The notes beneath the pieces are model-generated. The model was not told the origin of the DNA. It ran no database searches and saw only the letters and a list, made by a program, of their open reading frames with translations. Positions 4,870 through 39,739 of a DNA stretch of 64,000 nt are shown one piece after another; the stretch's first letter is position 1, and each line of letters opens with the position of its first letter. This DNA is from Tribonema minus (Eukaryota > Sar > Xanthophyceae > Tribonematales > Tribonemataceae). Where the stretch lies: positions 1,240,001 through 1,304,000 of the forward strand of contig JAFCMP010000445.1 in the NCBI GenBank assembly GCA_017506865.1, given 5' to 3'. A program made the translations under genes and the position numbers.

Positions 4870-5957
4870 CTACGAGGTGCCGCTTGTCCGCTTCCCCGTG
4901 GCAGCGTCCTTGACGGGCTTGCCGCCGCACGCCTTGCACCGGCTCTTCCGCCCGTGCGCGCACACCGCCGTCAGCGCCGGGTGGCACGCGTCACACTTCC
5001 GCCGGATCTGCCCGTGCACGCAGATGCCCTTGCCACCGCAGTCCTTGCAGTGGTAGCGGCGCCGCCCATGTGCGCAGATGGAAGAGCCGCCGCACTCCGT
5101 GCACTGCGCGCGCCGGCGCCCGTGCGCGCAGATGAAACTGCCGCGGCACTCCCTGCACCCCGCGCGGTGGTGTCCGTGCTCGCAGAAGCCTTTGCCGCCG
5201 CAGTCCTTGCAGTAGTAGCGCCGCCGCCCGTGTGCGCAGATGGAAGCGCCGCCGCACTCCGTGCACTGCGCGCGCCTGCGCAGGTGGAGCTGCTGCGGCA
5301 CTCCTTGCACTGTGAGCGCCGCTGCCCGTGCGTGCAGAAGGCAGGCCTGCCGCAGTCCCTGCAGGTGTAGCGGCTCCGCCCGTGCGTGCACGTCTTGCTG
5401 CTGCCTGTGCCGCTGCAATCTCTGCAATCTCGTTCCATCCCGTGCTTACAGGGCTGTTGTCGCAGCGGCGCCAGAGGAGTCCATTCTCCGTCCACGTGCT
5501 CCATATTTGCGCGTGCATGCGCCTCGCCGGGCTGTTGTCGCAGCGGCATCAGAGGAGTCCATTCTCCGTCCATGTGCTCCAAACTTTCAAGTGCACACGC
5601 TTCGTCGTTGCGGTTGCCATCGGCAGTGATAGCGGCAGCAGCTACACAAGTGGCGGCGGTCTCTGTCCCGAATGGCTTTAGAGGGGATGTGGCACCGCTC
5701 CCGCCATCTACTGCCGCTGTTAACGGTGCCCCTGCGATGGTGCTATCGCCGTTGCCGCTGGGAAACGCTGGATCGTCGAAGATCGCCCACGGCACAACAA
5801 ACACCGCAGGTGGTTGCACGTGGTGGCTGGAACTCCGCTGTGCTCTCGCCGTTTCTGAGGGTGCTGCTGCAGTGGATCTGTCGTCATGTTTGGTGGCCGA
5901 CGCTGAATCATGGGGGACCGCCCAAGGCACTTCAGGCAGTGTAGCAGCAGCCTGCAT
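4870..5957 (-). CDS. Cysteine-rich C-x-HGR-x-C-x2-C-G repeat protein, frame-disrupted
   Basis: Reading leftwards from ATG at 5957. The first ~150 residues are low-complexity and include a 23-residue duplication (EHMDGEWTPLMPLRQQP / EHVDGEWTPLAPLRQQP). About nine repeats of 18-19 residues follow, of the type ICAHGRRRAQCTECGG, each with C-x-H and C-x2-C, which suggests one zinc ion per unit. Such repeats are seen in many algal proteins of unknown role. The repeats run in one frame to about 5285 and in another from there to the TAG at 4870. At that point one unit lacks 7-8 bases (a CCCGTGCG-type block present in its sister units), which causes the shift. It is therefore a recent pseudogene, an allele, or an assembly error. 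Confidence 0.65.
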
Positions 5958-6243: not shown

Positions 6244-7749
6244 ATGACGCGCAAGTCAAGGAGCAAATCGCAGCATGCATCCTCATACACTTGCAGCAGC
6301 AACCGCCAGTTGCCCAGGTTTTCAAGGTGATGGCGTCGCTGTCGCTGCTGCCGAAAGCTGCTTGGGACCTCAAGAAGCAACTGCGGCGCGACGTGAGTCC
6401 GATGGTGACGCTCAGAATCAACCCCGCGACTGCTGCCGCCGTGCTACAGGGCGTAATGGCGAGCGAAAGTGAAGCGCCTACTCGGCATGACAGGCCTGCC
6501 GCCGCGGCTGCGTGACCTGCCCTATAGCATTTGCTCGATGACTTTGCTGGGCGTTCAGGGACAGCTTGAGCTAGGAGTGTTGCCTCAGCACCTGAAATCT
6601 TTCAGCCTGATGGCAGCAGCGAACATCGGCAGCTCGTCCCTGGCGGCGTGCCTCCATGCCTTGCCGCAGAGCGTGCGCCAGCTCAGCTTCCACTGCACAT
6701 CGCTCAGAGACCCGCTCAGCATGGCGGGCGTCAAGCTACCAGCGCGGCTGGAGGAGCTGGAGCTTCGCAACATCAGGGCACTGACCACGCTGCCGGCCTC
6801 TCTGACCAGCATGAAGCTGGCGCAGTGCCGGCTGCCGCTGGCGCTGCAGCTCCCCGCATCCCTGACCAGCGTTCGCTTCGATGACGTCTTTTGCACACGC
6901 GCTGCATTTGACATAAAGTGCCTCCCCAGCCTGCCACAACAGCTCAGGAAGCTGGATCTGCTCAGCCTCGACCCGTCACTGCCCGTGGCGCCGCTGCCGC
7001 CCGCGCTTCTGGACCTCTACATCTCCTACGACGGGTCTCACACCATGGCTGCTGGCGGCGCCGCCGCGTCGCTGGCGCCGCTGCCCGAGACCCTCAAGAC
7101 GCTCCAGGTAACGGACTATTCCGTTATTCTGCGGTCCGTCCTCGGTCCCTTGCCGCAGAGTCTGGAGGTCCTCGACGTGCAGCAGTGTTCCCAGCTCAAC
7201 ACCCCCCTGGGGCAGCTGCCGCCGGCGCTCACGGCGCTGTGCCTGGGTCAGCACTTCACGCAGGCCCTGGGGCCCCTGCCCGCGCAGCTGCAGGTGCTCA
7301 ACCTCCGGTTGTGCAGTCACTTTAACGTCCCGCTCGGGGCGCTGCGGCCTGCGCTGCGGGAGCTGCGGCTCGGCGACGCCTTCGACCAGCCGCTGCAGGC
7401 GCTGCCGCCAACATTGGAGGTGCTGGTGCTGGGCGATGCGCTCAGCCAGCCGCTGCAGTGCGCTCTGCCGCCGGCGCTGCGCACGTTTCAAGTGGGGAAC
7501 CTCTTCAACTCGCCTGTTGAGCTTCCGGGGACCCTGCGGTCACTGTCCATGGGCGACAGTTACACGCACCTCATGGAGCTGCCGTCGGGCCTCAGGGAGC
7601 TGCGCATAGGTCAGAGCTACATGCACGCGGTGCCGCCCCTGCCGCTTGCCCACGTCTGTTGTTCGCAGGCATATCCACACACCGTAGTGAGCAAGTCACT
7701 TGTGGTTTGGGACGCTGACAGCGATAGCGATGACAGTGATGCAGGGTAA
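6244..7749 (+). CDS. FNIP-repeat protein, copy 1 (frame-disrupted near the N-terminus)
   Basis: The long open part (6469-7749, ~426 residues) is built of ~22-residue leucine-rich units of the form LPPALRELRLGDAFDQPLQ and LPPTLEVLVLGDALSQPLQ, matching the FNIP (F-N-x-P) repeat known from Dictyostelium and algae; these proteins are thought to bind other proteins. Before it, a conserved head (VAQVFKVMASLSLLPKAAWD) lies in a different frame. Comparison with copies 2 and 3 puts frame shifts near 6285 and 6465. The ATG at 6244 aligns with the start of copy 2. The C-terminus ends in an acidic tail (DADSDSDDSDAG). A shorter protein from an ATG at 6469 or later is possible; otherwise this is a decaying gene. 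Confidence 0.65.
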
Positions 7750-8072: not shown

Positions 8073-8184
8073 TGTAGCCTTGTACTTTTTATTAATTCTC
8101 ACTCAGGCCTTGTACTTTTTATTAATTCTCGCTCAGGGCGCGCAAAAGCCCAGATGATTGGCATCTAGCTGTAAGGAATCTACA
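8073..8184 (+). repeat. Left terminal repeat (short LTR, tentative)
   Basis: Begins TGTAG and ends CTACA, giving TG...CA ends. Its right ~77 bases recur at 19178-19254 with one mismatch. It contains a partial internal tandem copy (two CCTTGTACTTTTTATTAATT units). At ~112 bases it is short for a Gypsy LTR, so the left edge is uncertain. Confidence 0.45.
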
Positions 8185-8190
8185 TGTCTG

Positions 8191-8205
8191 TGGTGACACT
8201 GGATG
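8191..8205 (+). promoter_or_regulatory. Primer-binding-like site
   Basis: TGGTGACACTGG begins with the TGG expected opposite a tRNA CCA end and lies six bases after the end of the terminal repeat. The matching tRNA was not identified. Confidence 0.35.
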
Positions 8206-8456
8206 TTGGGGTGTCACCTGTAACTGTTACGGTTGGCAGTTACGAGTTGTTCGTTGTTGTTTGTTTGGCTCAGACAAGAGCAGCAGCCCCAGAATACACA
8301 TAGCACAGTTCGGTCAGCTGTGTTGTGTGTGGGTGTCTTCTCTGCATTGTTCCCTGCACTTGCTGAAGTGTAGTACGGAGACTAGTTGTTTCATCAGTTG
8401 GTTCCCGAGTACGAAAATACGACCTTTGACCAAATCCACCAGGCGATAGCGGTACG

Positions 8457-11400
8457 ATGGCGCACGAGCAGGACTCGGCGCGTGCTGCATCAGGAGTAAA
8501 CTCTCGCGCAACGCGGAGCTCTGGAGTTGTGTTGGCCAAGCTGCCCTATGGCCACAACCCGGAGCCGAGGCGTGTGCAGAGGTCACGGAGTTTGTCCGTG
8601 GGACGCGCAGCATCACTGGCAGATGCTGTTGCGATCAAGGCTGGAGGCGCTGCTGGTGGCGCAGTCGTACCAGCCCAGAGTGCGAACGAGCTAGCAAGCG
8701 GCAGCGCAGTGAGAACAGAGCCTGTGCCAGGGCCTGCAACTGACGCTGCTGCGGCGGCTCCGCACCACTTGTCCACCATCGGGAGCAGCGACACCACTTC
8801 AGGTCCAGTATCTGTCGCTGACCACGCTTTGGTGGAGTGGGCAGACAGTGCTGCTGCCGACTGGGGGCACGAGTCTGGCGGCAAGCCTTCTGGACCCACA
8901 GGACTTCTTGGCGCCCTCGCCGACAACCCGAAGCACCTGGTCATCCGCCCGATGGGATCTGGGCCCGCAATGGACGCGGCGCCCTCTCCTAGGGAGCGTG
9001 AAATGGAGCAGGAGGAGCAGCGAAAGGAAGCTGCGACGGTGGGGCATATGACTGCCGAGGAGGACTTGGACTTGCAGCTCAACATGGAGTTGCAGTTCCT
9101 GCAGTCCGAGGTAACCAGCCTCAAAGGGGGGCTCGCAGGGGTGGCCAACACCACCTCTCTCATGGGGCAGGATCTGTGCATGGTAATTACGCACAACTTG
9201 CCCGGTATCGACACATCGCTGCGCAGGCACCAGATGCAGCTGGCGGAGCACGCTAGTGCACTGGCGCAGATGGGGAGTGGCCCCACCATCGCAGGCGGTG
9301 CAGCATCACAGCGCGACATGGACGCGCTGGTACAGGATGTGATTCCTGTCATACAAGGAGACATGGCGGCCATCGCGGGGAGCATCGCGGAGGTCGGTGA
9401 GAGGGTTGCGACTGCGGAGTTGCGGCTGATCCACATGGGTGAGCGCCTGTCAGGAGTGGCAGCGGAGGTTGCGCAGGGGCAAAAGCGCATGGAGGAGGTG
9501 ATCGCGCGGCAAGAGGATCTGCTGCGGCGGCACAACAACGCTGCAGAGGGCGTGGGGGACATGCGGCGCCAGCTACTTGAGGTGGGCACTAAAGTTGCGA
9601 TGCTTGATGCGCAGCGTCGTACCACAACGGCGTATGAGACATCCTTCCACTCTGTGGGTAGCAACTTTGGCAGCGCAGCACCCAGTGTGGCTCCCGAGGA
9701 CAGCGTGTCAGTAGCAGACTTCAGCACCAGCGGCCCGGCAGTGCCGCTTAGTACGATCCGCAGCAGCAGCGTGGCACGACCGCCTATTGCGCCATACGCT
9801 GCACCATTGGCTGGGCCTGGAAAGCACGTGTCGCCGCGCGGATCGGCGGCGCCGACCATTCCTGCTGGCGGCGCTGACGCCCGGCCACTGCGTCAACAAC
9901 TGGAACGTGTAACAAGCAGCTACGCTGCTGACTCGTCGGATGCGACTTTGGCACCCACAGCGCAGCCTACTATGAAGCCCGACGCTCAGCTGCAGCTGCA
10001 GCATGCAGCAGATCAGAGCTACTTCCATCAGGCTCTGATGACACTTACTATGCAGCGCGATGCAGCTACGGCAGAGGCTCAGCAGCTACGGAGGGCCAAC
10101 GCTGGCCTATCGGCGGCGCCAACGGCCGCAATGGCGGCCGCCCCAGGTACTATGCAAGCAGCGGCTACCCAGCAGAGGCCATCGACGACTGCTGCGCCAA
10201 CTGCCTTGCCTGCTGCCACCCTCGCGGACAGCGGCAGCAGCGACTTTGGCGCCGCAGCCCGCGGCGCCGGCAGCAGCGGCGGCGCCGGCAGCAGCGGCGG
10301 CGCTGCAGGCAGCGGCGGCGCCGGAGGCGGCGGCGGCGGCGATGGCGGCGGCGGCGGCGGCGGAGGCGGCAGCGGCCCCTCTAGATCGCCCCGGGGCAGT
10401 GTACCGGTTGGCGCAGCCTCTGGCGGCGGCAGCGGCGGCGGCAGTGGAGGCGGCGGTGGTGCAGGTGGCGCTGGTGGTGGCGGCAGTGGAGGCAGCCGCG
10501 ACGACAACTTTGATCGTGATGGCTGGGCTCTGCGCCGTGTACCGGCAGACTTGGACAAGCTGTTCCATGGCCTCACGCCTGTAAACCGCGGCGACGAGTA
10601 TGTCGTGTGGCAGATTGGCAGTCAACTGCTGGTGCACCTGCGCCACGCCTGCTCACTCGCGCGCCAGAAGGCCAAGCTGCCGCAGGTGCTCAACAGGGAG
10701 GACGACTTTGGTTGCGAATGGCTGGCCCCCTTCACCATGGGCCTGTGCGTCGCCTTACGGGGCTCGCACCCTGCAGCAGCAACGGTGCGCGAGCAGGCAG
10801 AACAATGGATCGCGGAGGGAGCACGGGGGGTGGCGGCTGGCACGAGAGACCTGCAGCTCTACAAGTGGCTCATGGAACAATTGGGGGAGCACTTCCAGCA
10901 AGGTCAGCCTTCTCGCATTGCGGCGGACCTGTTACGCGTGGCGGTGCGCAAAGACACGCCATTCCGTGATGCGCTCAACTACATGCAGTCCAAGTGCAAC
11001 CTGTCCGCAATGATCGACCCGACAAACGACAACCTACGCGTCCAAGCTCTTACGGGCTTGGTGAACAGGCAATACCCAACGATTGCTGCGCAGGACAACA
11101 TTCGGGACATCATCAACCGCCACACACGCTACAGCATGCACCAGGCGCTTGAGGCGCTCAAGGCGCACCGCTCCGTGCAGCATCTCGCCAGCGGCGCACC
11201 CGCCGGCTACTCTATATACCCGGAGACACTCAGCACGGGCTCAGGCGGAGGCGCCAGCGGTCTAAGTGGCGGCAGTGGTGGTGGTGGCACCAATGATTAC
11301 GCGCTGGGCGACAGGAGGCGCAGGCAGCAGCGTGAATCAGTGACACTGAACTCTATGGCTCTGTTGGCAGTGGTGGAGGAGAAATTCACCAGCTCGGAGC

Positions 11401-11738
11401 GGGCGCGGGGTAACGCGCTGGGGTGCTACAACTGCGGCGGTGATCACCTGTTCAGCGCATGCTCGGAGGCATTCAACCACGCAGGTTGGGCAGCGGCAGC
11501 AGTACAACGCCCACAGGTGCAGAAATTTGCGCCTACGAACCAGACGACGTGGCAGGCACTCCGGTCGCGCGTACGTGCTTTCAACAGCGGCGATGCCTCC
11601 TCGCTTCAGGGCCCGCGCGGCAGAGATTCTGCAGATGGTGGAAGCGGAAGTGGCGCTGGCGGTGGCAGGAGCTACAACCGCTACGGGGGCGGCTACGGCC
11701 GCGGCGGCCGTGGCAACAGTGGCAACAGGGGCACCTAG
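8457..11738 (+). CDS. Gag-like part of the LTR element
   Basis: Open frame of 1093 residues. Residues ~195-380 look like a long coiled coil (heptads around MTAEEDLDLQLNMELQ to RRQLLEVGTKVAMLD). Residues ~610-690 are Gly/Ser-rich low complexity. Residues ~690-930 form a helical region that fits a capsid-type domain by place and composition. A zinc knuckle CYNCGGDHLFSAC lies at residues 990-1002, spaced C-x2-C-x3-H-x4-C, one residue shorter than the usual C-x2-C-x4-H-x4-C. The tail is Gly/Arg-rich. It would coat the element RNA. The ATG at 8457 lies 266 bases after the primer-binding-like site. Confidence 0.75.
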   Translation: MAHEQDSARAASGVNSRATRSSGVVLAKLPYGHNPEPRRVQRSRSLSVGRAASLADAVAIKAGGAAGGAVVPAQSANELASGSAVRTEPVPGPATDAAAAAPHHLSTIGSSDTTSGPVSVADHALVEWADSAAADWGHESGGKPSGPTGLLGALADNPKHLVIRPMGSGPAMDAAPSPREREMEQEEQRKEAATVGHMTAEEDLDLQLNMELQFLQSEVTSLKGGLAGVANTTSLMGQDLCMVITHNLPGIDTSLRRHQMQLAEHASALAQMGSGPTIAGGAASQRDMDALVQDVIPVIQGDMAAIAGSIAEVGERVATAELRLIHMGERLSGVAAEVAQGQKRMEEVIARQEDLLRRHNNAAEGVGDMRRQLLEVGTKVAMLDAQRRTTTAYETSFHSVGSNFGSAAPSVAPEDSVSVADFSTSGPAVPLSTIRSSSVARPPIAPYAAPLAGPGKHVSPRGSAAPTIPAGGADARPLRQQLERVTSSYAADSSDATLAPTAQPTMKPDAQLQLQHAADQSYFHQALMTLTMQRDAATAEAQQLRRANAGLSAAPTAAMAAAPGTMQAAATQQRPSTTAAPTALPAATLADSGSSDFGAAARGAGSSGGAGSSGGAAGSGGAGGGGGGDGGGGGGGGGSGPSRSPRGSVPVGAASGGGSGGGSGGGGGAGGAGGGGSGGSRDDNFDRDGWALRRVPADLDKLFHGLTPVNRGDEYVVWQIGSQLLVHLRHACSLARQKAKLPQVLNREDDFGCEWLAPFTMGLCVALRGSHPAAATVREQAEQWIAEGARGVAAGTRDLQLYKWLMEQLGEHFQQGQPSRIAADLLRVAVRKDTPFRDALNYMQSKCNLSAMIDPTNDNLRVQALTGLVNRQYPTIAAQDNIRDIINRHTRYSMHQALEALKAHRSVQHLASGAPAGYSIYPETLSTGSGGGASGLSGGSGGGGTNDYALGDRRRRQQRESVTLNSMALLAVVEEKFTSSERARGNALGCYNCGGDHLFSACSEAFNHAGWAAAAVQRPQVQKFAPTNQTTWQALRSRVRAFNSGDASSLQGPRGRDSADGGSGSGAGGGRSYNRYGGGYGRGGRGNSGNRGT

Positions 11739-11849
11739 GGGTGCGACCCCCAGCCCACTCCTGGCTGGGGGGGAGCACTTGGAGCCTCTAGTGTCACTGG
11801 GGGGGGGAGTGACGCCCTCCCCCCGACGACAGTCAGAGACGCTGCGGCA

Positions 11850-12600
11850 GCAGCGGCGCCTGCGGGCGTCGCGCAAGCTGCAGTGCGCGCGACGTCTGCG
11901 GGGGCGACGGCGAGCGCCGCCCAAGCAGCTGACGCGCAGCGGAGCGCTGCGGTGGCAGCGGTGCCCTCGGGCGCCGCGCCAGTCGCAGCGCGTACTTCTG
12001 GTGTGGCGGCGCCGCGGCGCGCCGCGCACGCACCAGAGGCACTACGGAGTGCTGTGGCAGCAGCGGCGCCTACTGACGTCGCGCAAGCTGCAGCACGCGC
12101 GGCTTCTGCGGGGGTGCTGGTGAGCGCCGCCCAAACGGCCGACGCGCAACGAAGCGCTGCGATGGCAGCGGCGCCCTCGGGCACCGCGCCGGTCGCGGCG
12201 CGTGCTGCTGGTTTGGCGGTGCCTGCGCGCGCCGCGCACGCACCAACAGCACCACGGAGGGCTGCGGCAGCAGCGGTGTCTATGGACGTCGCGCAAGCTG
12301 CGGCGCGCGCAGCTTCTTCAGTGGCGCCGTCGAGCGCCGCCCAAGAGGATGACGCGCAGCGGGGCGTTGCGATGGCAGCAGCGCCCTCGGGCGCCGCGCC
12401 AGTCGCGGCGCGTGCTTCTGGTGTGGCGGCGCCGCGACGCGCCGCGCTCGCACCAGCAGCACCACGGAACGCTGCGGCAGCAGCGGCACCTTTGGGCGCT
12501 GCGCTGTCTGCAGTGCATGCAGCTTCTGCAGCAGCGGCGAGCGCCGCCCACGCAGCAGCTGCGCAGCAGAGCGTTACGACGGCGCAGCTTCCGTTGAGCG
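11850..12600 (+). repeat. Ala-rich coding tandem repeat, left block
   Basis: About 3.5 degenerate units of ~70 codons (near 210 bases) with recurring phrases AAPSGAAPVAARASGVAAPR and DVAQAAARAASAG. GC content is very high. It lies between Gag and protease. Related units recur right of the methyltransferase. Confidence 0.7.
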
Positions 12601-13539
12601 CTGCTGCTGAGGAGGCGCCCACGAACGCTGCTGAAGTCGCAACGGCGCGATGGAGACCGGCGGCGTTGGCGGCGCCTGATGGTGCTGCACAGTCGCCGGC
12701 GACAACAACTACGACTGTACAGCGGTGGCCTATTTTGGGGCGACGTAAGTCCAGCGGCGCGCGGCTACGGCGCGCGCGCGCGGAGCGCCTGCAGCAGGAG
12801 CAGCGCGCTCGACAGCCGGTAGCACCCCTCAGCCCTATTCAGGAGCGTGGTACTCCAGCACGGAGACCCGTGCATGCTGCGGCGGGTCATGGAGTTGGCG
12901 CGCACGCGTCATCGCAAGGGGGGGTGAGGATACCACCAGCACCAGCAGTGAGTAGCTGCAGCACGGCTACAACTGCAACTTCTGCGCCGGCAACGGCGCC
13001 ACATTTGGCGACTGCAGCAGCTGCTGCGACGCGACACACGACAACTCCATCTTCTACACCAACTTCAACTCTGACATCAACTGCGACTCCCACACATTCC
13101 TCAAGACCGCCTTCAGCACCACTCAGCGGCGGCGACGCTGCTGCGGCGGCGCACGCCGCCGACGACGCCGCCTTTGCAGCGGAGCAGCAGCGCAGGCTGA
13201 TAGCTCTGCAGCGGCTTCATGCTTTCAAGGTGGATGGCACGGCTCAACCTGAGCCGCAGCGGCGGATGCGCAGCTGGGCGCCGGCGGCAGAGACCCTTGG
13301 CGCCATCGACGAGGTGCTGGACGGCGAGGCGGGCCTGACAGCGGTGGAGATAGCCATGGCAGAGGAGGCGCGCACTGTTGAGCGCTGCTTCGAGATACTG
13401 GCGATGTGGGCGCCGGAGGACGGAGCTGATGACGGGGCGGTCTTGGCATACTACGCTGAGGTGGCAGCAATGGAGGCCGCAGTACTACCTGTACCACAGC
13501 AGGCAAGCATGCCCAACGTAAGGGGCAAACTCTATACTG

Positions 13540-13960
13540 ACGTGCACTCTAGGTTCAAGGCCCGTTTACGCTCTGCGCGCGCACTACGTTGCAAGTTTTC
13601 TAGGGACATTCTCTGGGACACTGGGGCCTCAGTTACTGCCATCAGGGAGCAAGCATTCCGCAAATTAGTTGCATCAGGAGCCATAGAGCAACGGGATGTT
13701 CACCAACTCAGCAAACCTAGGGCAGTAGCCGGTGTTGACACATCCAAGAAGCCACAGCTCGTCACCCACGCTGTAGCGCTTCACTTTGAGGCTGATGGCC
13801 CAGACGGGGTAGCTTTCACTCAGCTGGCGCTCATTGTACCACATCTGCCACACGACATCATCATTGGGCGTGACCACATCAGCAGACATAAGTGGCATGC
13901 AAGTCATAGTGGCAGTGGGCCCACATACGTGTATGGCGAGCCATCAGCAGAGTCCACCCC
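13540..13960 (+). CDS. Aspartic protease part of the LTR element
   Basis: The active-site phrase WDTGASVTAI (near 13617) and the later DIIIGRDHI (near 13860), about 80 residues apart, match retropepsin-type proteases (D-T/S-G and I-L/I-G-x-D). It lies upstream of the methyltransferase. Confidence 0.75.
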
Positions 13961-14329
13961 CAGCTTCAGTCCCAAAGTCCCAGTGTACACCTACGGAGAG
14001 GAACGCGATTGGGTGGCAGTAGTGCGCGTCGCAACAGAGCTAGATGGCCTTGAACATGGTGTGCAGACAGTTTGGGTTCAAGTGATGGAGTCTGATGGGA
14101 TCACACCTGTCGTCTCCTGCCCGGGAGAACTGGACACAGCACATCTGACCATTGCGGAGGAATTCCTGAATCACATGTACACACGCGAGCTGACGGTTGG
14201 GCTGCATGCCAAGCCGGTCAAGCTCGAGCAGCAGGGGGAGCCCCTCTCGCTGCCACGTGGCACCGTGCTGGGCAAGGCGCGGCCGCTACGTGAGGTACCT
14301 GACAGCGTGCTGGAACGGGACCCGAACGC

Positions 14330-15400
14330 GCGCGCCACGGCGGTAGAGGTTTACTGCGGCGCTGGCGGCCTGGCGGAGGGGCTCCAGCCCTACTTGAACG
14401 TCAAGCTAGCCGTTGACTCTGAGGAGCGCGCTCTTCGGATATACAAGGAGAATCACCCTCATACGGACGTCCGCCGCCGGGATATGGCGGACCCATCTAC
14501 GCGCGCAGAGCTCATTGCAGATATGTGGCGGCTGCGCGCCGAGGTCTTATTAGGGGGCCCCCCCTGCCAGAAATTCTCAACAGCAGGGGAGGGGGAGACG
14601 GCTTTGGGCATGGAGCACCTCTACTACATGCTGGAGGTAGCAATGGGCGCAGAGACCTGCCGACTACTGCAGATTGAAAATGTTCCGGGCCTTGGAGCGG
14701 CACCGGAGCTGGCGGAGTTTCTGCGCTGCGCAGCACACGGCGGCTTCACGGTGCAGCAGGAGCTAGTGATCACTGGTGCAGACAGCCGCATTGCTCAGAC
14801 GCGCACGCGTGTGTTTTGGCTGCTGGGGCGACCTGGCACTGGCGAGCACGACAGCGCGCGCATGCAGGCGTCTATGTGTGCGCCCAGGTGGTCAATGCAA
14901 CGCATTTCGACCTTGCATTGACCACCTGGGCGCACATATGCACCAGGCAGTGCAGTTGCTGACATATGCCAAGCAGCACGCTGAGTACGACACCGTGCGC
15001 AACGTCACCAGCGACGTGCTTGACTCCAACGGTCAGCGGCGCGACTTCTTTGCAACAGTTGGCCGCAACACTAAGGCCAAACAGGTGCACTCTATGGACG
15101 GCCCGGCGCCGACCATTCGCGGCTGCACGTACCGCCGAAACCTGCAGCCTAACATCGACGTGCGACCACAGGATGCTACGCAGGACCCGGCTGAGCACGC
15201 GCGCGCGGAGTACCTACCCTGGCATGCGCTGCGCGCCATTCACAGCTTTCCCACCTCGTACAAGTGGGATGCTCCAGAGCCGCCTGACGTCACTGCCTAC
15301 TCACAGATGCTGGCGAACGCGGTGTGCCCGCAAATGGCGGACCTACTGGGGGGGATCCTGCTGCAGAGCGGATTGCTGCATGATGTCGTGGACCAGGCGG
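14330..15400 (+). CDS. C5-cytosine DNA methyltransferase part of the LTR element
   Basis: Motifs of the C5 family appear in the normal order: I (EVYCGAGGLAEGL, near 14347), IV with the catalytic Pro-Cys (LLGGPPCQKFSTAG, near 14550), VI (QIENVPGL, near 14672), VIII (IAQTRTRVFWLLG, near 14790), and further right a motif X-like NAVCPQMADLL (near 15315). The family moves a methyl group from S-adenosylmethionine to carbon 5 of cytosine in DNA. Retrotransposon-borne enzymes of this kind are known from some algae and dinoflagellates, but this position between protease and RT is unusual. It belongs to a broken element, so activity is not assumed. Confidence 0.8.
14877..14936. repeat. Perfect 24-base inverted repeat
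   Basis: Arms 14877-14900 and 14913-14936 (TGTGCGCCCAGGTGGTCAAT... and its reverse complement) are perfect over 24 bases around a 12-base loop, inside the methyltransferase part. No other perfect hairpin of this length was noticed nearby. Confidence 0.9.
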
Positions 15401-15529
15401 CGGCATCGTCGCTGCCAGATCCAGTACAAACCCTCATCAATTCTGGCACCCACCCTGCTTTCGGCAAGTATGGAGTGGCTCTTGCACAGGAGGCGCGCAG
15501 ACGTGTGGCGCGCGGAGCGCGCGCCCCTC

Positions 15530-16480
15530 AAGCACAGGCTGCTGCAGCTGCGGCGGCGCCGGCGAGCGCTGCGACGGCGGCGCCAGCGAGCGCTGCTGCA
15601 GCAGCGCCGGTGAGCGCTGCTGCAGCGGCGCCGGCGAGCGCTGCTGCGGCGGCAGCATATACAGGCATTGCGCGCAGTGCGCCGCGGGCTGCTGCCGCGG
15701 CGCCGCAGGGTGCCGCGCAGTCAGCGGCCGCGCCGCGGAGCTCTGCGACAAAAGAGACGTCTTCTGGCCCCGTACACGGCGACACTGCTGCTGCTGCGCA
15801 GGCAGCGGCTGCACGCCGGGACGCTGCGGCGGCATCGGTGCCGGCTGGCACCGTGTGCGCTGCGGCCCAAGCTGCCTCAGGGGCGGCTCATAAGGAGGTC
15901 GCGCAGGCAACAGTTGCGCGACGGAGCGCTGCGACGGCAGCGGCGCCCGAGGGCGCCGCGCCAGTCGCGGCGCGTGCTGCTGGTGTAGCGGCTGCGTCGG
16001 CGCGCGCCTCGCGCGCACCAGTGACACCAGGGAGTGCTGCAGCAGCAGCAGCGCCTGTGGGCGCCGCGCCAGCTGCAGCGCGCGCAGCCTCTTCGGTGGC
16101 GCCGACGAGCGCCGCCCAAGCGGCGGACGCGCAGCGGAGCGCTGCGGTGGCAGCGGCGCCTACGGGCGCCGCGCCTGTCGCGGCATACGCTGATTCTGCC
16201 GCGGCGCCGACCAGCGCCGCGCATGGAGTGGCAACACAACAGAGCACTGCGGCAGCAGCGGCGCATGCTGGCGCTGAACCAGTCGCAGTGCACATGGCCA
16301 CCGCAGTGGAGTGGGCGAGCTCCGCACAGGCGGCAGCGGCGCAGCAGCGCTCTGCAGCGGCAGCGGCGTCTGAGGACGCCGCGCATGCGGCAGCGGCTAG
16401 TGGGAGCAATGCTGCAGCGGCAGCATCAGTGACAAGCGATACAGCGGCGCAGCCCGCGCACGCGGCAGGCGCCGCCGCGG
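15530..16480 (+). repeat. Ala-rich coding tandem repeat, right block
   Basis: Degenerate Ala-rich units. The stretch ~15880-16250 repeats the phrases of the left block (AAPEGAAPVAARAAGVAA, AADAQRSAAVAAAPTGAAPV), so the two blocks share an origin. Shorter PASAAAAAPVSAA units lie at 15545-15655. Confidence 0.65.
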
Positions 16481-16917
16481 CGGCGCCAGCGCGCGCTGGG
16501 AGGGAGGAGCACATCTTTGTGCTGGACCTGCGCACTGACATTATGCGCTGCGAGGCGGAGCCGGAGGGTGACGCCGGCAGCAGCGCTGACGCGACTATTG
16601 CGAAGGGCGCAGCAGCCGTGCGAGAGGCGCTGCAGCAACACCTCGGTGAGGCCGTTGACTTTGAGCCTAGTGGGAGCGCAAAAGTACACATTCCTGACAG
16701 CGGCGGCTTAAGTTTGGGGTCATAAGTTCACGAAGACCCTAAGGTTAATGCTGCTTTGGCTGAGGCACGCAAGCACTTGCCAGACTACATGCTGGCAGTG
16801 CGCGTTGACCTGCAGGGATGGGACGTTGATCAGGTGGCGTGTTTGTGCCTGCTGCTCGCTCAGTATAGCAGCAAAATGTTCTCAAAAGACAAGTGAGACA
16901 TAGGGCATTGTAACACA

Positions 16918-18390
16918 TTGCCCTTCCGCTTTGAGCTCAAAGCGGGCAGCACACCGCACCATGACCGTCCATATAGGTACTCTCCTGCAATGACGGCTCT
17001 GGTCAAGGTCGAAATCGACAAGCTGCTGGCTGCTGGCATCATCCGCCCTTCCAACTCTGAGTGGGCATCCCCAGTGGTGGCAGTGCTCAAGCCTGATGGC
17101 ACTGCCCGAATCACCGTCAACTACAAGAAGCTGAACGCCCAGACCAAGATCCCCCAGATCCCCATTCCCAACATAGAGGATCTTCTCAATAGTTTGGGGG
17201 GCTCAAAGGTCTTCACCACCATGGACATCACCAGTGGGTACTTCACTAGTGCCATAGATGCAGACAGCATCCCCCTCACTGCCATGGTCACGTCGTTTGG
17301 CTTGTATGAGTGGCTACGGTGCCCACAGGGGGCAGCGGGGGCGCCAGGGCACTTTACACGCCTCATGCAGATGGTGCTTTCCGGCCTAGAGCGCGTCCAG
17401 CCCTACATTGACGACGTCATTGTGCACTCTACATCCACGGCTCAGCACCTCGACGACCTCAAAGCCCTTTTTCAGCGCCTAGAGCATCATGGGATGAAGC
17501 TAGCCCCCAGCAAGCTGCACATAGGGTGTAAGCACATCAAGTTCCTGGGGCACATTGTGGGCGTTGATGGCATCAGGCCAGATCCATCCAAAGTTCAAGC
17601 CCTACTTGAGATGCCCATCCCCTGCAACATCTCTCAGCTGCGTGCGTGGCTTGGCCTCGCAAACTACTACCGGCGATTCATTCAGAACATGGCCAAGCTG
17701 GTAGCACCGCTCACCCATCTGATGGCCAAGGGGGTGGACTTCGTAGTTGGCAGTGCTCAACAGCAAGCCATCCGCGAGGTCAACGAAGCCCTGGCGCTTC
17801 ACACTTGCATGCAGTACCCCGACTACGCGCGCGCCAGCACCGGCGAGCGCCCCTTTGTCCTTGCCACAGACGCATGCAAGGAGGGCTTTGGCGCAGTGCT
17901 CTCGCAGGCCAACAACGACGGCGCGGAGCAACCGATCGCCTTCACATCTCGCGCGACTCTACCCAATGAGCGCAACTGGTCTACTACCGACCTTGAAGCT
18001 GGCGCCATCGTCTTCGGCATCAAGAAGTTCAAACACATCCTGTGGGGGACGCCGTTTGTCCTCTACACCGACCACCGCGCTCTTCAGTACATCGACAGCC
18101 TTCGCGAGCGCACCGCGCGCGGCGCGCGCTGGAGCGAGTTCCTCAGCGCCTTCAACATCACCATTCGCTACAAGAAGGGCGCGTCACACGGCAATGCCGA
18201 CGGGCCAAGCCGCAATCCTGTCCCTGCCACACCACAAGATGCAAAGGAGAGCGAGCGCGAGCGGCTGCTCGAGGCGTACTGCCTGCAGGCCCACGAGTGG
18301 GAGCGGCTGGAGGCATTTGCAACAGCAGAGTACATCAACATCTGCACAGAGGTGGTAGCAGCGCTTCAAGGAGGGGGAGACATGTCGTAT
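16918..18390 (+). CDS. Reverse transcriptase and RNase H part of the LTR element
   Basis: The RT has FTTMDITSGYF, the catalytic box YIDDVIVHS (near 17404) and KFLGHIVGVDGI, then the WLGLANYYRRFI phrase typical of Ty3/Gypsy. The RNase H part has LATDACKEGFGAVLSQ (near 17860), YTDHRALQYI (near 18064) and the closing HGNADGPSR (near 18187). Order and phrases assign the element to Ty3/Gypsy rather than Copia. The integrase that normally follows is absent; LINE sequence begins soon after. Confidence 0.9.
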
Positions 18391-18421
18391 GACAGTCTGA
18401 AAGTGTCGCAACGACAACCAC

Positions 18422-19177
18422 TCAAACGCCGCCGCCGCCAAATGGCATCTCGGGGTCCTCCCCTACGTCCTCCTCCATGTGCCCCCCCCCCCTGGATTCT
18501 GCCATGTGTGTCATGACACGGCCAGAGTACGCCATGTGGAGCGCTGCCAACAGTGCCGAGCGTAAGCGCGCCAGGGCGATGCCCTTGAGAGCTTTAGGGC
18601 GCGCTCCTCCGGGCACTGACATCCTGCTGGCATACTCCGTCGCCACAGCCTCCAGCAGCTTCCGCCCCTGCTCCCCGATGCTGCCAAATGACCCTATTGC
18701 CAAAGTGGCAAGTTTGTAGCAATTCTGATCATAATGACCAGAATAGTGGGTAGTCTTGGCGGCCTCTTGGTCGCGGCAGCATCGCTCGGGGTCTGCTGCA
18801 GTCTTCGCCGCCCGCGACGCCACCTGTGCCTCGAAGCAGGTAACGTCCACCATGAGCGGTAGGTGGCGTGTCGGGTCGTCGTAGCCGGTCACCGGGAAGG
18901 CGTCGGCAGGCAGCACGATGTCCATCATGCGACTCCCCGGCGGCCCGGCGGACCCCAGAAACGGCGTGTAGTCCTCGTCCACCAGTCCCGTTTTGAGGTA
19001 TTGCCGCAGGATGCGCTGCGTGGCCCTCTTGACGCTATTGTGGACGATGGTGTCGTGCGCCTTGACGCGTGGCGCTTGACACAGCCGTGCATGCAGGGTG
19101 CCGCCCGGCGACTTCCCGCACAGCTTGCAGCCTGCCGTCTGCCCCTCTACTCCGATGGCGCGTTTGACGGCCAGCAG
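18422..19177 (-). mobile_element. LINE 3' fragment (C-terminal end of ORF2), 5'-truncated
   Basis: About 250 residues read leftwards to TGA at 18422. A zinc-finger-like CKLCGKSPGGTLHARLC is followed by KAHDTIVHNSVKRATQRIL, a D-I-V-L-P segment, and LPLMVDVTC. This order (CCHC finger, then an R-x-K/R-H-x2 helix, then a D...DVT pair) matches the tail of non-LTR retrotransposon polyproteins in algae and oomycetes. The reverse transcriptase itself is missing. Its 5' edge is cut exactly at 19177/19178, where the LTR remnant begins. This fits either insertion of a 5'-truncated LINE into the LTR element or a deletion junction. Family assignment is inferred from pattern only. Confidence 0.5.
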
Positions 19178-19257
19178 CCTTGTACTTTTTATTAATTCTC
19201 GCTCAGGGCGCGAAAAAGCCCAGATGATTGGCATCTAGCTGTAAGGAATCTACATGT
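19178..19257 (+). repeat. Right terminal-repeat remnant
   Basis: 80 bases matching 8108-8187 with one difference. Only the right part of the repeat remains, because LINE sequence abuts its left edge. A small palindrome (CTACATGTACTACTAGTACTAC) straddles the right boundary. Confidence 0.8.
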
Positions 19258-21229: not shown

Positions 21230-22852
21230 ATGCGGCAGCGAAGGAGCAAATCCAAACATGCATCGTCCACCTTGCAGCAGCTGCCGATTGCACAGGTGTT
21301 CAAGGCGATGGCGTCGCTCTCACTGCTGCCAAAAAACGCTTGGGATCTAAATAAGCAACTGCGTCGCGACGTGAGACCAATGGTCACGCTCAGAATCAGC
21401 AGAGGACACAGGTGCTGCCCTGCTGCGGAGCGTGCTGGCGAGCAAGTCAGTAAGGCATCTGATCGGCGAGGGAGGCCTGCCGCGGGTGCACGATCTGCCA
21501 GGCAGCATTCGCGAAATGACCCTAATCGACGTGCAGTCTAGGCTGCTGGTAGGAGCGCTGCCCGCGCACCTGGAAGCCTTCAGCCTGACGGCATTGGAGG
21601 GCGTCAGCAGCTCTGGCCTGGCGGCATGCCTCAATGCTTTGCCAACCAGCGTGCGGCGGCTTGCCTTCAGCGGTCCTTCGGACAGTGCCCTTTTCAGCAT
21701 GGCCGACGTCAAGCTCCCGCCACAGCTGGAGAAGCTGGAGCTCAGCGATGTCAGCGAGTTAACCGTGCTGCCGCCATCGCTGACCAGCATTGCGCTCCAG
21801 CACTGCTGGCTGCTGCCAGCGCTGCAGCTCCCCGCATCCCTTACCAGCGCCTGCTTGGGCTGGAGTTTCGGCGAGGACACTGCGCTGCCCGGTCGTCAGG
21901 CGCGCCGCGTGCCCGCCCTGCCGCAGAACCTGAGGACACTTGAGCTGTCGGCGCTTGACCCACTACCGCCTGTGGCGCCGCTGCCGCCCATGCTGGCGCA
22001 TCTGAAGGTCCCCTACACGACCTATTTCACCAGACATCATGGCGACAACGCCTTCCAGCCCCAGCCGCTGGCGCCGTTGCCATCGACCCTCAAGACGCTG
22101 GAAATCACGGAAGACGACATTCATGTTGTTGAGCTGCAGCCCATCCTTGCTCGCCTGCCGCCGCATCTGGAGGTCCTGGACGTGTCGCAGTGCACCAACT
22201 TCAACATCGCCCTGGGTCAGCTGCCCCCAACGCTCACGGCCCTGCACCTGGGATCACGCTACACGCACGCCCTGGGGCCGCTGCCGCCCAGCCTGACGGA
22301 GCTGCAGTTCCACACTTCCTTAGGCTACTTCCCCACATCCTTGTTCAACTGTCCGCTCGAGCCCCTGCCCACGCCCCTGCGCATGCTCGACTTGAGCCTG
22401 TGCGACCTCTTCGGCTTCCCGCTCGGACCGCTGCCGCCTGCGCTGCAGGAGCTGCGGCTTGGCGATACCTTCAACCAGCCGCTGCAGCCGCTGCCCCCAG
22501 CATTGGAGGTGCTGGCGCTGGGGAATGCCTTCAACCAGAGCCGCTGCAGCGCGCTCTGCCGTCGGCACTGCGGACATTCGAGATGGGGCACAGTTTCAAT
22601 GCGCCTGTCGAGCTACCGGAGACCCTGACAAGGTTGGTCATTGGCGACAGTCACACGCACCGCCTGAACTTGCCGCAGAATCCCGAAAAGCTTCGCATAG
22701 GATACATGTACACGCACTTGGTGCCGGAACTGCCGTTGGCGCACGTAAGATGCCCGCGATCATATCCTCATGCCGTAGTGAGCCAGTCCATCGCGCTTTG
22801 GGACTACAACAGCGATGCAGATGACAATGGTGCAGCGTATATCGGTGAGTGA
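21230..22852 (+). CDS. FNIP-repeat protein, copy 2 (frame-disrupted)
   Basis: ATG at 21230 opens the shared head (IAQVFKAMASLSLLPKNAWD). The repeat body reads from ~21410 in a second frame to ~22540 (units such as LPPALQELRLGDTFNQPLQ), and the end (TFEMGHSFNAPVELPETL... to the stop at 22852) lies in a third. The two shifts, near 21405 and 22540, are placed by comparison with copy 3. Length and repeat content otherwise match copies 1 and 3. It is probably a pseudogene unless the shifts are sequencing errors. The acidic C-terminus (DYNSDADDNGAAYIGE) parallels that of copy 1. Confidence 0.65.
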
Positions 22853-24266
22853 TCTGCATGCGCGGGGGGCAAGAACATGCAGTGGGCGAACAGTAGCCTT
22901 GCAGCAGTTGACTGCCTCTGCTCGACGTTTAGTCAACATCCCTATTCAGGCTATACGTAGTATTACCAGGTGTTATATAATATATATATATATATATATA
23001 GCATATGCCACCCTATGACTGGGCTGTAATCCCTGTCAGAACGCTGCTCTCGACCACCAGTGCCGTGTGCATCCGCATGACTCATGAGTGCATGGCATGC
23101 CAATAGACCAGAAAGAACGTCACAGTTGCCTTGGAGTCCGTCTTTTTTTTAACGGCATTGCACTTGATGAACGTCGACACAAGAAAGTCCAGGCAGCATT
23201 TGTGTTGTTCTGCGCTAGATCGTAGGCTCCATGATTGACATCACGTTGTGCACTCAGTCCTTGTTTACCAACTGAACTGGCCTGCGCAGCATCCCATGAT
23301 GCAGTGATTGTGATGCATGAATGTGTTCCACGAAGCTCTTGCCAACAGTGTGTCTCGTGCATTTTCGTGACTGTGCGGCAATAGGGCCAGTGTGATGGCT
23401 GGCAGCTGAGCACACAACACCACAGCATGATACATGATGCAGGCTCACTTGCAGTGCCGCAAGAGCGGACGGCTCTGGTGGTGTTTGGTCAACGGTTTGC
23501 TAAGAGCAGCTTGTGGAGGAGCTGCTGCTCGACAGCAAACCGATGCAAGTAGGGGCAACTAGTTTTGCCATTCAAACAGCAGCAGCGGCGCCCGGGCAGG
23601 GAGCCACTGTGGCCCCACCATGCAGCGGACGACAGCACCTCTGCCGTTCTCTTTATGCTGAATGCAGCGCTGCAGTAGGATACTTACTGCAACTTGATGC
23701 ATGTAACGCATCGGCAGCCGACAACAATCACCAGACTGCGCAATAACAGTGTAGTTCGAAGGATGGCTGATGAGCGAATGCTGATGAGCGAATGTAAACA
23801 CCAAGTGGCTTCAGCAGCCGCTGCAATGCCGAGAACCACACAAGAAACCTCGACTCCGCGGCGGTGCATGTCATCAACGATCCCAGTGGAACTAGTATCA
23901 GTATAGCAGTCCAGGGGTGCAAGGGATTTAAAACCTTGCGTCGTTGCAGGAAGGGGCTCTTTTCGACGCGTGTGCAGCGCTTTTTGCACACAATTGGCGT
24001 TTACGTGCACACTGCACGGGTAGACAATGCTCGCCAATGGCTCTCCAATGGCAACATGTACACATGCAGCGATCGTGAATTAGATGGCGTAGACCTACGG
24101 CGAAGCCTACGATGTTTTCAAATGGGACACGTAAGGTTTCCGTTTTTGGGAGAGTCACCCTACGCCAAGTTCACATTGTTCTGGATTGTTCGAGGTTCGC
24201 GTGTGCAGCTTTCATTGTGAGCCGGCAAGGTGCCCCATCAGCCGATCAGAGCAGCGTACGGCGATT
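22853..24266. other. Region between FNIP copies 2 and 3
   Basis: Holds a TA microsatellite at 22975-23000. The stretch ~22860-23500 is related to ~25850-26520, showing that the downstream flank was duplicated together with the FNIP gene. No gene seen. Confidence 0.5.
22975..23000. repeat. TA microsatellite
   Basis: Almost uninterrupted TA dinucleotides in an otherwise GC-rich window. Confidence 0.9.
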
Positions 24267-25841
24267 ATGGTGGGGCAGCATTCAAGGACCAGATCAAAAA
24301 ATGCACCCACTTTGCAGCAGCCGCCGCCAGTTGCACAGGTGTTCAACCTGATGGCCTCGCTCTCGCTGCTGCCGAAAGCCGCATGGGACCTCAACAAGCA
24401 ATTACGACGCGACATCAGGCCAGTGGTGACGCTCAGAGTTGAAAAGGAGACAAGTCGTGCCCTGCTTCGGAGCGTGCTGGGGAGCAAGTCAACAAGGCAT
24501 CTGATCGGTGAGGGGGGGCTGCCGGGAGTGCATGGCCTGCCCGATACCATTCGCGAGATAACTTTAGAGGGCGTTCAGTCCAGGCTGCTGTTAGGAGCAC
24601 TGCCGAGGGACCTGGAGGCTCTCACTTTGAACGCAGCGGCGCGCGCCAACAGGTCGTGCCTGGCGGCATGCCTCAATGAATTGCCGCATAGCGTGCGCCG
24701 GCTCAGCTTCAGCTGTTGGTCTTGGGACGATTACTTCAGCATGGCTGATGTCAAGTTCCCGCCAGGGTTGGAGGCGCTGGAGCTGAGAAACATCAGCGAG
24801 GTGACTGCGCTGCCGGCGTCGCTGACCAGCATCAAGCTCAGCGCGTGCAGGCTGACGCCGGCACTGCAGCTCCCCGCATCATTGACCAGCGTTTACCTGA
24901 GCAGTATGGAGTTCACGGCGACTGCAGCGCCCGTCGATCAGGTACGCTGCATACCTGCGCTGCCGCAGCAGCTGCAGAAACTTGAGCTGCTGCTCCTTGA
25001 GCCATGGCTGCGGGTAGCGCCGCTGGCGCCCACGCTGGCTCACCTGTACGTTGACTACGCCCCTCATCAGTGGGCCGGTGCCGCCAACGCCCTCCGCATC
25101 CAGCCACTGGCACCGCTGCCACATACCCTCAAGACGCTGGTAGTAGCAGCCGATTTTTCAAGGTATGCTGGAGCCCATCCTGGGTCGCCTGCCGCAACAC
25201 CTGGAGGTGCTGGACCTGCAGCAATGCACCTATTTCGACACCCCTCTGGGGCAGCTGCCCCCAGCACTCACGGCTCTGCGCCTGGGGACAACTTCACACA
25301 GGCCCTGGGGCCGCTGCCCCTCAGCCTGACGGAGCTGCAGTTCATCCCTCGACGCAATGACTACTGGCCCACGTGCCGATTCAACTCCCCGCTGGGGCCC
25401 CTGCCCGCGCAGCTGCGGGTGCTCAACCTCAGGGAATGCAGCCACTTCAACTTCCCGCTCGGAGCGCTGCCGCCTACGCTGCAGGAGCTGCGGCTCGGCG
25501 AGGCCTTTGACCAGCCGCTCTTGTCACTGCCCCCAACATTGGAGGTGCTGCTGCTGGGCTACCACTTCAGCCAGCCGCTGCCGCACCAACTGCCGGCGGC
25601 ACTACGGGATTTCCAGATGGGACACGACTTCAATGCGCCCATCGAGCTTCCAGGAACGCTGCAAAGGTTGGTCATCGGCGACACTTACACACACCAGTTG
25701 CATGTGCCAAGGGGCCTCAAGATGCTGCGTATAAGTCAGAGCTACATACACCCAGTACCGCCATTGCCGCTAGCGCACGTCTGCTGCCCACAGTGGTATC
25801 CGCATGCTGTAGAGTGCCGGTCCATGGAGTATGGATTGTAA
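24267..25841 (+). CDS. FNIP-repeat protein, copy 3
   Basis: Continuous frame of 524 residues from ATG at 24267, with head (VAQVFNLMASLSLLPKAAWD), repeat body (LPPTLQELRLGEAFDQPL, LPPTLEVLLLGYHFSQPL) and tail. This is the only copy open from end to end. However, residues ~300-340 (25160-25290) do not look like FNIP repeats in this frame, while another frame of the same DNA reads LPQHLEVLDLQQCTYFDTPL. A pair of opposite indels therefore put one and a half repeats out of frame without closing the gene. The head region may be a degenerate F-box; that is a guess. Its role is unknown beyond likely protein binding. Confidence 0.75.
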   Translation: MVGQHSRTRSKNAPTLQQPPPVAQVFNLMASLSLLPKAAWDLNKQLRRDIRPVVTLRVEKETSRALLRSVLGSKSTRHLIGEGGLPGVHGLPDTIREITLEGVQSRLLLGALPRDLEALTLNAAARANRSCLAACLNELPHSVRRLSFSCWSWDDYFSMADVKFPPGLEALELRNISEVTALPASLTSIKLSACRLTPALQLPASLTSVYLSSMEFTATAAPVDQVRCIPALPQQLQKLELLLLEPWLRVAPLAPTLAHLYVDYAPHQWAGAANALRIQPLAPLPHTLKTLVVAADFSRYAGAHPGSPAATPGGAGPAAMHLFRHPSGAAAPSTHGSAPGDNFTQALGPLPLSLTELQFIPRRNDYWPTCRFNSPLGPLPAQLRVLNLRECSHFNFPLGALPPTLQELRLGEAFDQPLLSLPPTLEVLLLGYHFSQPLPHQLPAALRDFQMGHDFNAPIELPGTLQRLVIGDTYTHQLHVPRGLKMLRISQSYIHPVPPLPLAHVCCPQWYPHAVECRSMEYGL

Positions 25842-39493: not shown

Positions 39494-39739
39494 TTCGATG
39501 TTTTCGATGTAGGTACGGCTTCTGTCACAGCCATTATCAGTTGAAGTTCACTCCAGAACTTCACATGACAGAACTTCACTCCTGACAGTTGAAGTTCACT
39601 CACCTGAACGAAGGAGACCTGCAGGGCTTCTTTGGAAAAACTGTCGATGCCAGACACATTGCCTTGCGCTGACAGAAGATGACATCCAATGCATGTTCTC
39701 TCTGTTTTCCGACTGATGGAGTTTCGCTGCAACAACTGC

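Follow-up and report, generated by a model that had tools for sequence, protein, structure and literature searches.

A preliminary description of this locus had reported cytosine methyltransferase (MTase) motifs at 14330-15400 inside a Ty3/gypsy-type element, which raises the question of whether such a domain is an accident of one insertion or a regular part of the polyprotein, and what it might do there. The MTase does lie in that interval, but the whole element is larger. Within the window, the full 64,000-nucleotide stretch of DNA analysed here, a decayed Ty3/gypsy element occupies 8189-18380 and carries, in order, a 5' LTR, gag, an in-frame UAG, protease, C5-cytosine MTase, reverse transcriptase (RT) and RNase H. 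Its parts are listed below, C551 being a copy elsewhere in the genome to which the window copy aligns at 98-99% identity across 8189-18380.

8189-8398, plus strand: 5' LTR of about 208-210 bp, TG...CA, 99% identical to the C551 LTR
8457-11738, plus strand: gag open frame, ending at the in-frame TAG 11736-11738, with a CCHC-like knuckle from 11424
11736-11778, plus strand: putative UAG readthrough site, a TAG in conserved context with a predicted downstream stem-loop
about 11795-12600, plus strand: Ala-rich linker, similar to that at 15500-16500, repeats mostly at 105-bp spacing
13500-13990 (approximate limits), plus strand: retropepsin-like protease, by its motif (DTGAS, 13617-13631) and by the relative L011
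14325-14876, plus strand: C5-cytosine MTase, motifs I-VIII, by PF00145 (E 3.7e-14) and motifs
14877-14936, no strand: inverted-repeat insertion of 60 bp, fold-back/MITE-like, which interrupts the MTase frame and has a 4-bp duplication
14937-15380, plus strand: C-terminal part of the MTase in another frame, motifs IX/X-like, 98% alignment to C551
15500-16500, plus strand: Ala-rich repetitive linker, repeats mostly at 105-bp spacing
17086-18153, plus strand: RT (YIDD, 17404-17415) and RNase H, by RVT_1 and RT_RNaseH
18381-19257, minus strand: unrelated abundant repeat at the expected site of integrase, chromodomain and 3' LTR; the C551 match ends at 18380

Four stop-to-stop frames follow one another across the element: 8430-11738, 11739-14921, 14770-16725 and 16897-18516. 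The first (1102 aa) matched no Pfam gag family and is labelled gag because of its position and its Cys/His motif. The second holds the protease and the first part of the MTase (DNA_methylase at residues 868-1029), the third the remainder of the MTase and an Ala-rich linker, and the fourth RT and RNase H, where Pfam E values range from 3e-25 (RVT_1) to 8e-34 (RT_RNaseH) and RT_RNaseH_2 is also matched. Read directly from the window, motif I lies at 14343-14369, motif IV (GGPPCQ) at 14553-14570, motif VI (IENVPG) at 14673-14690 and motif VIII (QTRTRVF) at 14796-14816; an IX-like stretch (RAIHSFP, 15232-15252) and an X-like stretch (LANAVCPQ, 15310-15333) are both in a different frame from motifs I-VIII. 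We take these motif numbers and names to be those of the C5 MTase numbering. Pfam and motif reading together confirm the arrangement first described, with motifs I, IV, VI, VIII and an X-like stretch between a DTGAS protease and a YIDD RT with RNase H. The domain search proposed at the time returned DNA_methylase and RVT_1. Neither the window copy nor C551 gave a Pfam protease call; a gag-asp_proteas match (E 8e-4, under the curated cut-off) was obtained in L011, a relative of the same layout.

The copy is broken, as had been stated: the 60-bp inverted repeat shifts the MTase frame, a TGA at 16894-16896 precedes RT, and the 3' third, everything past RNase H, is gone. Because of this truncation the copy has no integrase (and no chromodomain); it retains one LTR and is a dead element. 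The 60-bp insertion itself has 24-bp perfect arms, which recur as the arms of a longer inverted repeat in the C551 flank (L010:5377-5493), and so represents a MITE-like family. Within the window Rfam gave no match at gathering scores and ARAGORN found no tRNA.

Families of the element across the genome

The assembly searched comprises 158.2 Mb, and the window was located in its G000:C445. The MTase piece of the window matches at least 151 places (150 of 370 candidates scored), and identities among the listed matches form groups at ~96-99, 62-66, 34-41 and 29-32%. PF00145 lies above its cut-off in at least 123 places, host-type genes included (123 of 378 candidates scored); 48 of the 123 listed are in frames of at least 2000 aa and 88 in frames of at least 1000 aa. 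The C551 RT matches at least 115 places (114 of 553 candidates scored), in a list that reaches down to 37-38% identity and leaves more distant RT families outside it. When up to 8 kb upstream of each RT match was examined for an MTase in the same orientation, 92 of the 115 listed had an MTase or MTase-like domain at 1.3-3.4 kb. This domain is of the active type in 66 cases (1295-3415 bp distant, and exactly 2119 bp in 16 of them) and of the type found in copy C214 in 26 further cases (2125-2684 bp). Among the first 85 RT rows (at least 50% identity) 66 are paired, as are 26 of the 29 rows at 37-38%, one short RT fragment falling outside both identity groups. The other 23 RT matches have no MTase partner, several being RT fragments or lying near contig starts; 92 of 115 may be an underestimate, because the MTase lists used for pairing were partial (91 and 38 typed rows). 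The genome search for relatives with the same order of parts, as initially proposed, was thus positive, and a one-off insertion or a chimeric assembly, which had been named as the opposing case, is effectively excluded, since different contigs carry dozens of copies in which the parts keep this order and are similarly spaced.

The Pol frame of C551 (2936 aa) has the MTase at 867-1179, followed by RT, RNase H, Integrase_H2C2, rve and Chromo, and that of C66 (2758 aa) has the same layout. C23 (3177 aa), C290 (3129 aa) and C525 (2832 aa) carry MTase, RT, RNase H and integrase, with no Pfam match to Chromo in these three frames. The Chromo match has an E value of 5e-7 in C551 and of 2e-5, exactly at the cut-off, in C66, and rve is above its cut-off in C290 and under it in the other four. 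Protease is detectable by Pfam only in C66, as a weak match below the cut-off, and by motif in C551, C66 and C490. In C507 the MTase and part of the RT were detected, and in C212 the MTase alone in the frame examined. The order of parts in the window and in these relatives supports the original assignment to Ty3/gypsy, since Pol runs protease-RT-RNase H-integrase, the last three by Pfam in C551, C66, C23, C290 and C525. Paired LTRs, also expected of Ty3/gypsy elements, were found in 7 of 11 copies checked, with identities of 99.07-100%; the pair in C279 spans 89 bp only, and the repeat of C290 has 881 bp and reaches into the end of the Pol frame. The two LTRs of C551 are identical over 210 bp, with TG...CA ends and an apparent 4-bp target duplication. 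The C551 and C490 copies are both incomplete, because gag is spread over two frames in the former and no gag frame of at least 300 aa exists in the latter. Judged from sequence, the MTase-bearing element is a group of several families with long open Pol frames, and recent insertions are present among them. The term fossil, used at the outset, suits the decayed window copy, but this copy is not a lone remnant: it is one member of many-copy families with long open frames.

Chromoviruses (PMC12477816; here and below, comparisons with published systems follow partial texts of the papers cited) are Ty3/gypsy elements with a chromodomain, and C551 and C66 likewise have a chromodomain after the integrase. 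By layout, their protease-RT-RNase H-integrase order with a C-terminal chromodomain is chromovirus-like, but they differ in containing an MTase, and Chromo was not found in C23, C290 and C525. In Ectocarpus, the same partial text describes chromodomain gypsy lineages outside the chromoviruses (PMC12477816).

Gag and pol lie in one frame in both the C551 and the C66 subfamily, with a TAG in the same context between them. The TAG of the window copy does not look like damage: C551, C66, C279 and C490 all have it, in a conserved context. A 9-bp stem (11747-11755 with 11763-11771), surrounded by an outer stem, begins eight bases past the TAG. Folding predicts it in each of four sequences, which amount to three different ones because window and C551 are identical here, and two neighbouring stem pairs, read off the alignment, are changed on both sides between the subfamilies with pairing kept. 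The folding energies are unremarkable, with hairpin MFE z-scores of only -0.4 to -1.2, slightly under shuffles. A conserved in-frame stop followed by 3' RNA structure, the signature of readthrough, was found in the C551 and C66 subfamilies only, and the stop context, conserved stem and compensatory pairs make it likely that their Gag-Pol is produced by UAG readthrough. A parallel may be drawn with Candida albicans Tca2, which we take to be a Ty1/copia element. Tca2 also has one in-frame stop between gag and pol, with a possible RNA structure after it, but its stop is UGA, as opposed to the UAG followed by a stem-loop in the present gypsy element (PMC2194720, in part).

Relatives outside this genome were found among database proteins: P0002-P0006 (JGI and ENA records) share 42-68% identity with the query across 42-81% of its length. 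The element group is present beyond this genome, because in P0005 a single frame contains both the MTase and a stretch resembling a protease (below cut-off). A full-Pol search scored on residues 560-1180 gave none at E 0.001 among 7986 candidates. IMG/VR held no MTase relative with the query patterns from a single sequence or from alignment A4, and the prokaryote species set held none with the A4 pattern.

The algal host that had been assumed is supported: the genome appears to be that of an alga with a red-type plastid, with 92 light-harvesting matches and one short rbcL fragment of red type, whose best matches are presumably diatom and red-algal chains. The light-harvesting fragments are nearest to the multi-repeat chain 9vfj, and the next-nearest chains are, we assume, cryptophyte or red-algal. 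The phycoerythrin alpha family, to our knowledge confined to cryptophytes, had no match in the genome, and control genomes gave no match either.

Class, descent and selection of the methyltransferase

Against solved structures, the MTase profile scored highest with DNMT2 (83 bits), followed by the bacterial-type 3g7u (67), HhaI (62) and DNMT1 (59), the best match covering only profile positions 4-163 of 323. Among the 53 solved-structure sequences at E <= 0.01 (DNMT2, HhaI, HaeIII, DNMT1 and other C5 enzymes), none was named DNMT3 or DRM, in a library that we take to include DNMT3 structures; by this comparison the element MTase is not DNMT3-like. DNMT1-RFD had no match in the genome, nor in control genomes. 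The motif set of C5 MTases (I, IV with PC, VI with ENV, VIII with RxR, IX and X) is present in the window and in the C551/C66 type and incomplete in C23, C54, C15, C264, C214 and C544. Over 11 aligned MTase rows there is no variation at E124, N125, R166 and R168, which belong to motifs VI and VIII, and hardly any at the catalytic cysteine C87 and at G21. A predicted structure of P0003 was of low confidence (pLDDT 31, from 5 aligned rows) and was discarded.

In a 22-row tree, 13 retroelement MTases (11 from this genome, with P0003 and P0005) form one side of a branch with support 98/96. The nine outgroup rows are six database proteins, the genome's DNMT2-like exon and two standalone MTases, and the tree contains no DNMT1, DNMT3 or DNMT5 row. 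C525, C507, C279, C311 and L035 (near copy of L034) were left out as near copies, P0002 because it has no N-terminal half, and P0004 and P0006 because they are apparently frame-damaged; C54, C15, C264 and C544 are also outside the tree. With regard to the comparison with host genes proposed in the preliminary description, the DNMT2-like gene of this genome lies outside the retroelement branch, on a long branch. The claim of a single origin is limited by the nine outgroup rows, by the 44% column fill of C214 and DNMT2 and by long branches, of which the tree tool warned. RT and MTase identities covary (r 0.89 over 21 pairs of 7 copies, with 3 of 2000 permutations as high), and the simplest reading of these sequences would be a single MTase uptake followed by joint descent with RT. 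Three standalone C5 MTases of 367-390 aa, L033, L034 and L035 (G000:C223, C181), are the top three listed PF00145 matches; the two standalone MTases in the tree fall outside the retroelement branch.

Between C66 and C490, dN/dS (NG86) is 0.078 for the MTase, 0.064 for RT, 0.055 for integrase and 0.104 for RNase H, with 0.15 for the protease, 0.165 for Chromo, and 0.45 and 0.62 for the linkers. Between C551 and C66 it is 0.24 for the MTase and 0.09 for RT, with dS above 1 in both. These ratios indicate that the MTase is under purifying selection.

Possible roles of the methyltransferase

Architecture, copy number, common origin in the sampled tree, purifying selection and recent insertions are sequence-based results; readthrough, enzymatic activity, substrate and purpose are what we infer beyond them. 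The overall explanation that we favour, and hold to be somewhat more probable than its competitors taken together, combines one MTase uptake, joint descent, a readthrough Gag-Pol and methylation of the element's own cDNA. Before the families split, a Ty3/gypsy lineage would have acquired a single C5-cytosine MTase of bacterial-/DNMT2-like kind, placed between protease and RT, and the domain would have been inherited together with RT ever since. The element would make Gag alone or, by UAG readthrough with the stem-loop after it (C551/C66 subfamilies), Gag-Pol, from which the protease may free the MTase within the virus-like particle. The likeliest role of the enzyme would then be to methylate the element's cDNA around reverse transcription or integration, which might provide a self mark or set the chromatin state of the insertion; in chromodomain subfamilies the integrase chromodomain may contribute to placement. 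The self-methylation reading draws on the position of the MTase in Pol, on selection and on the precedent of the SymbioDIRS MTase, which methylates CpG de novo (PMC5890265, in part).

The copies themselves carry no clear 5mC footprint, because the CpG excess is weak and CpC is equally high in C551-type copies. Pooled transitions per 1000 sites between C551 and the window plus seven copies are 19.3 for CpG, 21.5 for CpC, 7.6 for CpA and 6.7 for CpT, with shared differences counted more than once. The corresponding values for CpG and other contexts are 121 and 60-86 (C66 vs C490), 21.6 and 9.0-13.4 (C23 vs C525) and 23.2 and 11.9-18.9 (C290 vs C507), so that CpG transitions are only ~1.2-2.9 times those of other contexts. 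CpG observed/expected is ~0.9 in the element and in the window.

Catalysis is not retained in every family, because motif IV is altered in some and lost in one. It reads PPC in C551, C66, C212, C550, C64 and C312, APC in C513, TPC in C290, SSC in C23 and STRC in C54, C15 and C264; C214 and C544 lack the loop altogether, with the neighbouring motifs kept. Against the MTase profile, the C214 domain retains a score of 65.3 bits, where the best of 500 shuffles reaches 5.0; its Pfam E value is 0.0044, under the cut-off. At least 27 of the 133 listed C214 matches are at least 97% identical (150 of 204 candidates scored); the loop's absence was read in the letters of two of these, and the other 25 each give a single unbroken alignment with the loop-less query across that stretch. 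Eight of the 27 lie in frames of at least 2000 aa, four of them ~3450 aa. In 16 of the 27 the MTase-like domain is split: a second frame, overlapping the other, is needed to match its first 34 residues (the two are often ~1496 aa and then ~1972 aa). This would reflect either an inherited break in a master copy or a programmed shift. Such split-frame copies (e.g., C16:474185-474744, minus strand) are broken at the same spot, yet amplified.

These families bear on an alternative that we consider unlikely, namely that Pol retains the domain chiefly as a folded scaffold or as a nucleic-acid/SAM-binding module and that methyl transfer is dispensable. It would account for a C214 family that matches the MTase profile despite the missing motif IV stretch and has spread at high identity, partly in long frames, as well as for the sister families C54/C15/C264, which retain the cysteine but not the proline. 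Set against this, PPC is kept in 6 of 13 distinct families or copies in the alignment (C544 apart), the dN/dS of the MTase is near that of RT, and the domain is split by frame in the 16 places. The C214/C544 dN/dS of 0.47 cannot show constraint, because ~10 changes are too few, and the value of 0.17 between C214 and C54 comes with near-saturated synonymous sites and includes time before the loss. A combined proposal, which we offer tentatively as a minority view, is that one ancient uptake of a prokaryote-type C5 MTase founded a long-lived gypsy group of red-plastid algae with the MTase as a standard part of Pol, and that in one branch the catalytically dead fold became a non-enzymatic part of replication.

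That the MTase acts on RNA, for example the element RNA or a tRNA primer, seems to us decidedly unlikely. The top structure matches are DNMT2 / tRNA (cytosine(38)-C(5)) methyltransferases, ahead of HhaI and DNMT1, and RNA methylation has been proposed for SymbioLINE (PMC5890265, in part); against this, the best DNMT2 stretch is confined to half of the profile, as given above, and the DNMT2-like gene of this genome stands apart from the retroelement branch. Still less probable is a service to the host or an attack on rivals, by silencing competing elements or guarding against DNA viruses, as put forward for accessory domains of retrotransposons (PMC6338049, in part), since the spacing to RT and the pattern of selection are those of an element gene.

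MTase-bearing retrotransposons as such are already known (PMC5890265, PMC12344493, PMC6338049), and the uptake of cytosine MTases by dinoflagellate and charophyte retrotransposons, mentioned in the preliminary description, is in print (PMC5890265). DNMT3 has been described in LTR Copia and DIRS elements (PMC12344493). Among the known systems nearest to the element described here is KnitGypsy-Dnmt3 of Klebsormidium nitens, a Ty3/gypsy Pol polyprotein with a DNMT3-type MTase; the two share a gypsy Pol with a cytosine MTase under purifying selection, but the Klebsormidium system has DIRS-like repeats and a charophyte host, whereas the present one has plain LTRs and an MTase outside the DNMT3 class, occurs as several families in what is apparently a red-plastid host, and shows erosion of the catalytic site (PMC5890265, in part). 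SymbioDIRS-Dnmt3 and SymbioLINE-Dnmt of Symbiodinium are likewise high-copy retroelements with a cytosine MTase, but they are DIRS (tyrosine recombinase) and LINE elements, in contrast to a gypsy element with integrase, and their MTases are DNMT3 or of a Symbiodinium orphan class (PMC5890265, in part). A gypsy group with a non-DNMT3 MTase, an apparent red-plastid host, several families and active-site loss was not found in the open PMC literature, a scope that leaves subscription papers and Repbase outside. The published retrotransposon MTases (dinoflagellates, charophyte) have an unclear purpose, and the series from PPC through APC/TPC, SSC and RC to deletion, in one 158-Mb genome with recent insertions, makes for a natural experiment on the enzyme's purpose, in which families that have a catalytic centre and families that lack one can be set side by side within one cell.

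Neighbouring features in the window

The repeat at 18381-19257 occurs in at least 40 places, the window included, at ~99% identity over 799 bp (40 of 1576 candidates scored), and a unit of ~80 bp adjoins the 799-bp repeat and recurs beside its copies. A 270-aa minus-strand frame within it matched no Pfam family. The 81-bp direct repeats at 8107-8187 and 19177-19257 were considered as LTRs and rejected, being part of this abundant repeat, with the true LTR starting at 8189. Long open frames of similar sequence flank the element at 6457-7749, 21375-22628 and 24135-25841, and FNIP repeats were found in the first and third, the two frames scanned. Ankyrin-repeat proteins with CPW-rich repeats are encoded at 38600-39547 (minus strand) and 58682-59632 (plus strand). 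At 4870-5442 (minus strand), Cys/His-rich tandem repeats, mostly 54 bp apart, had no Pfam match.
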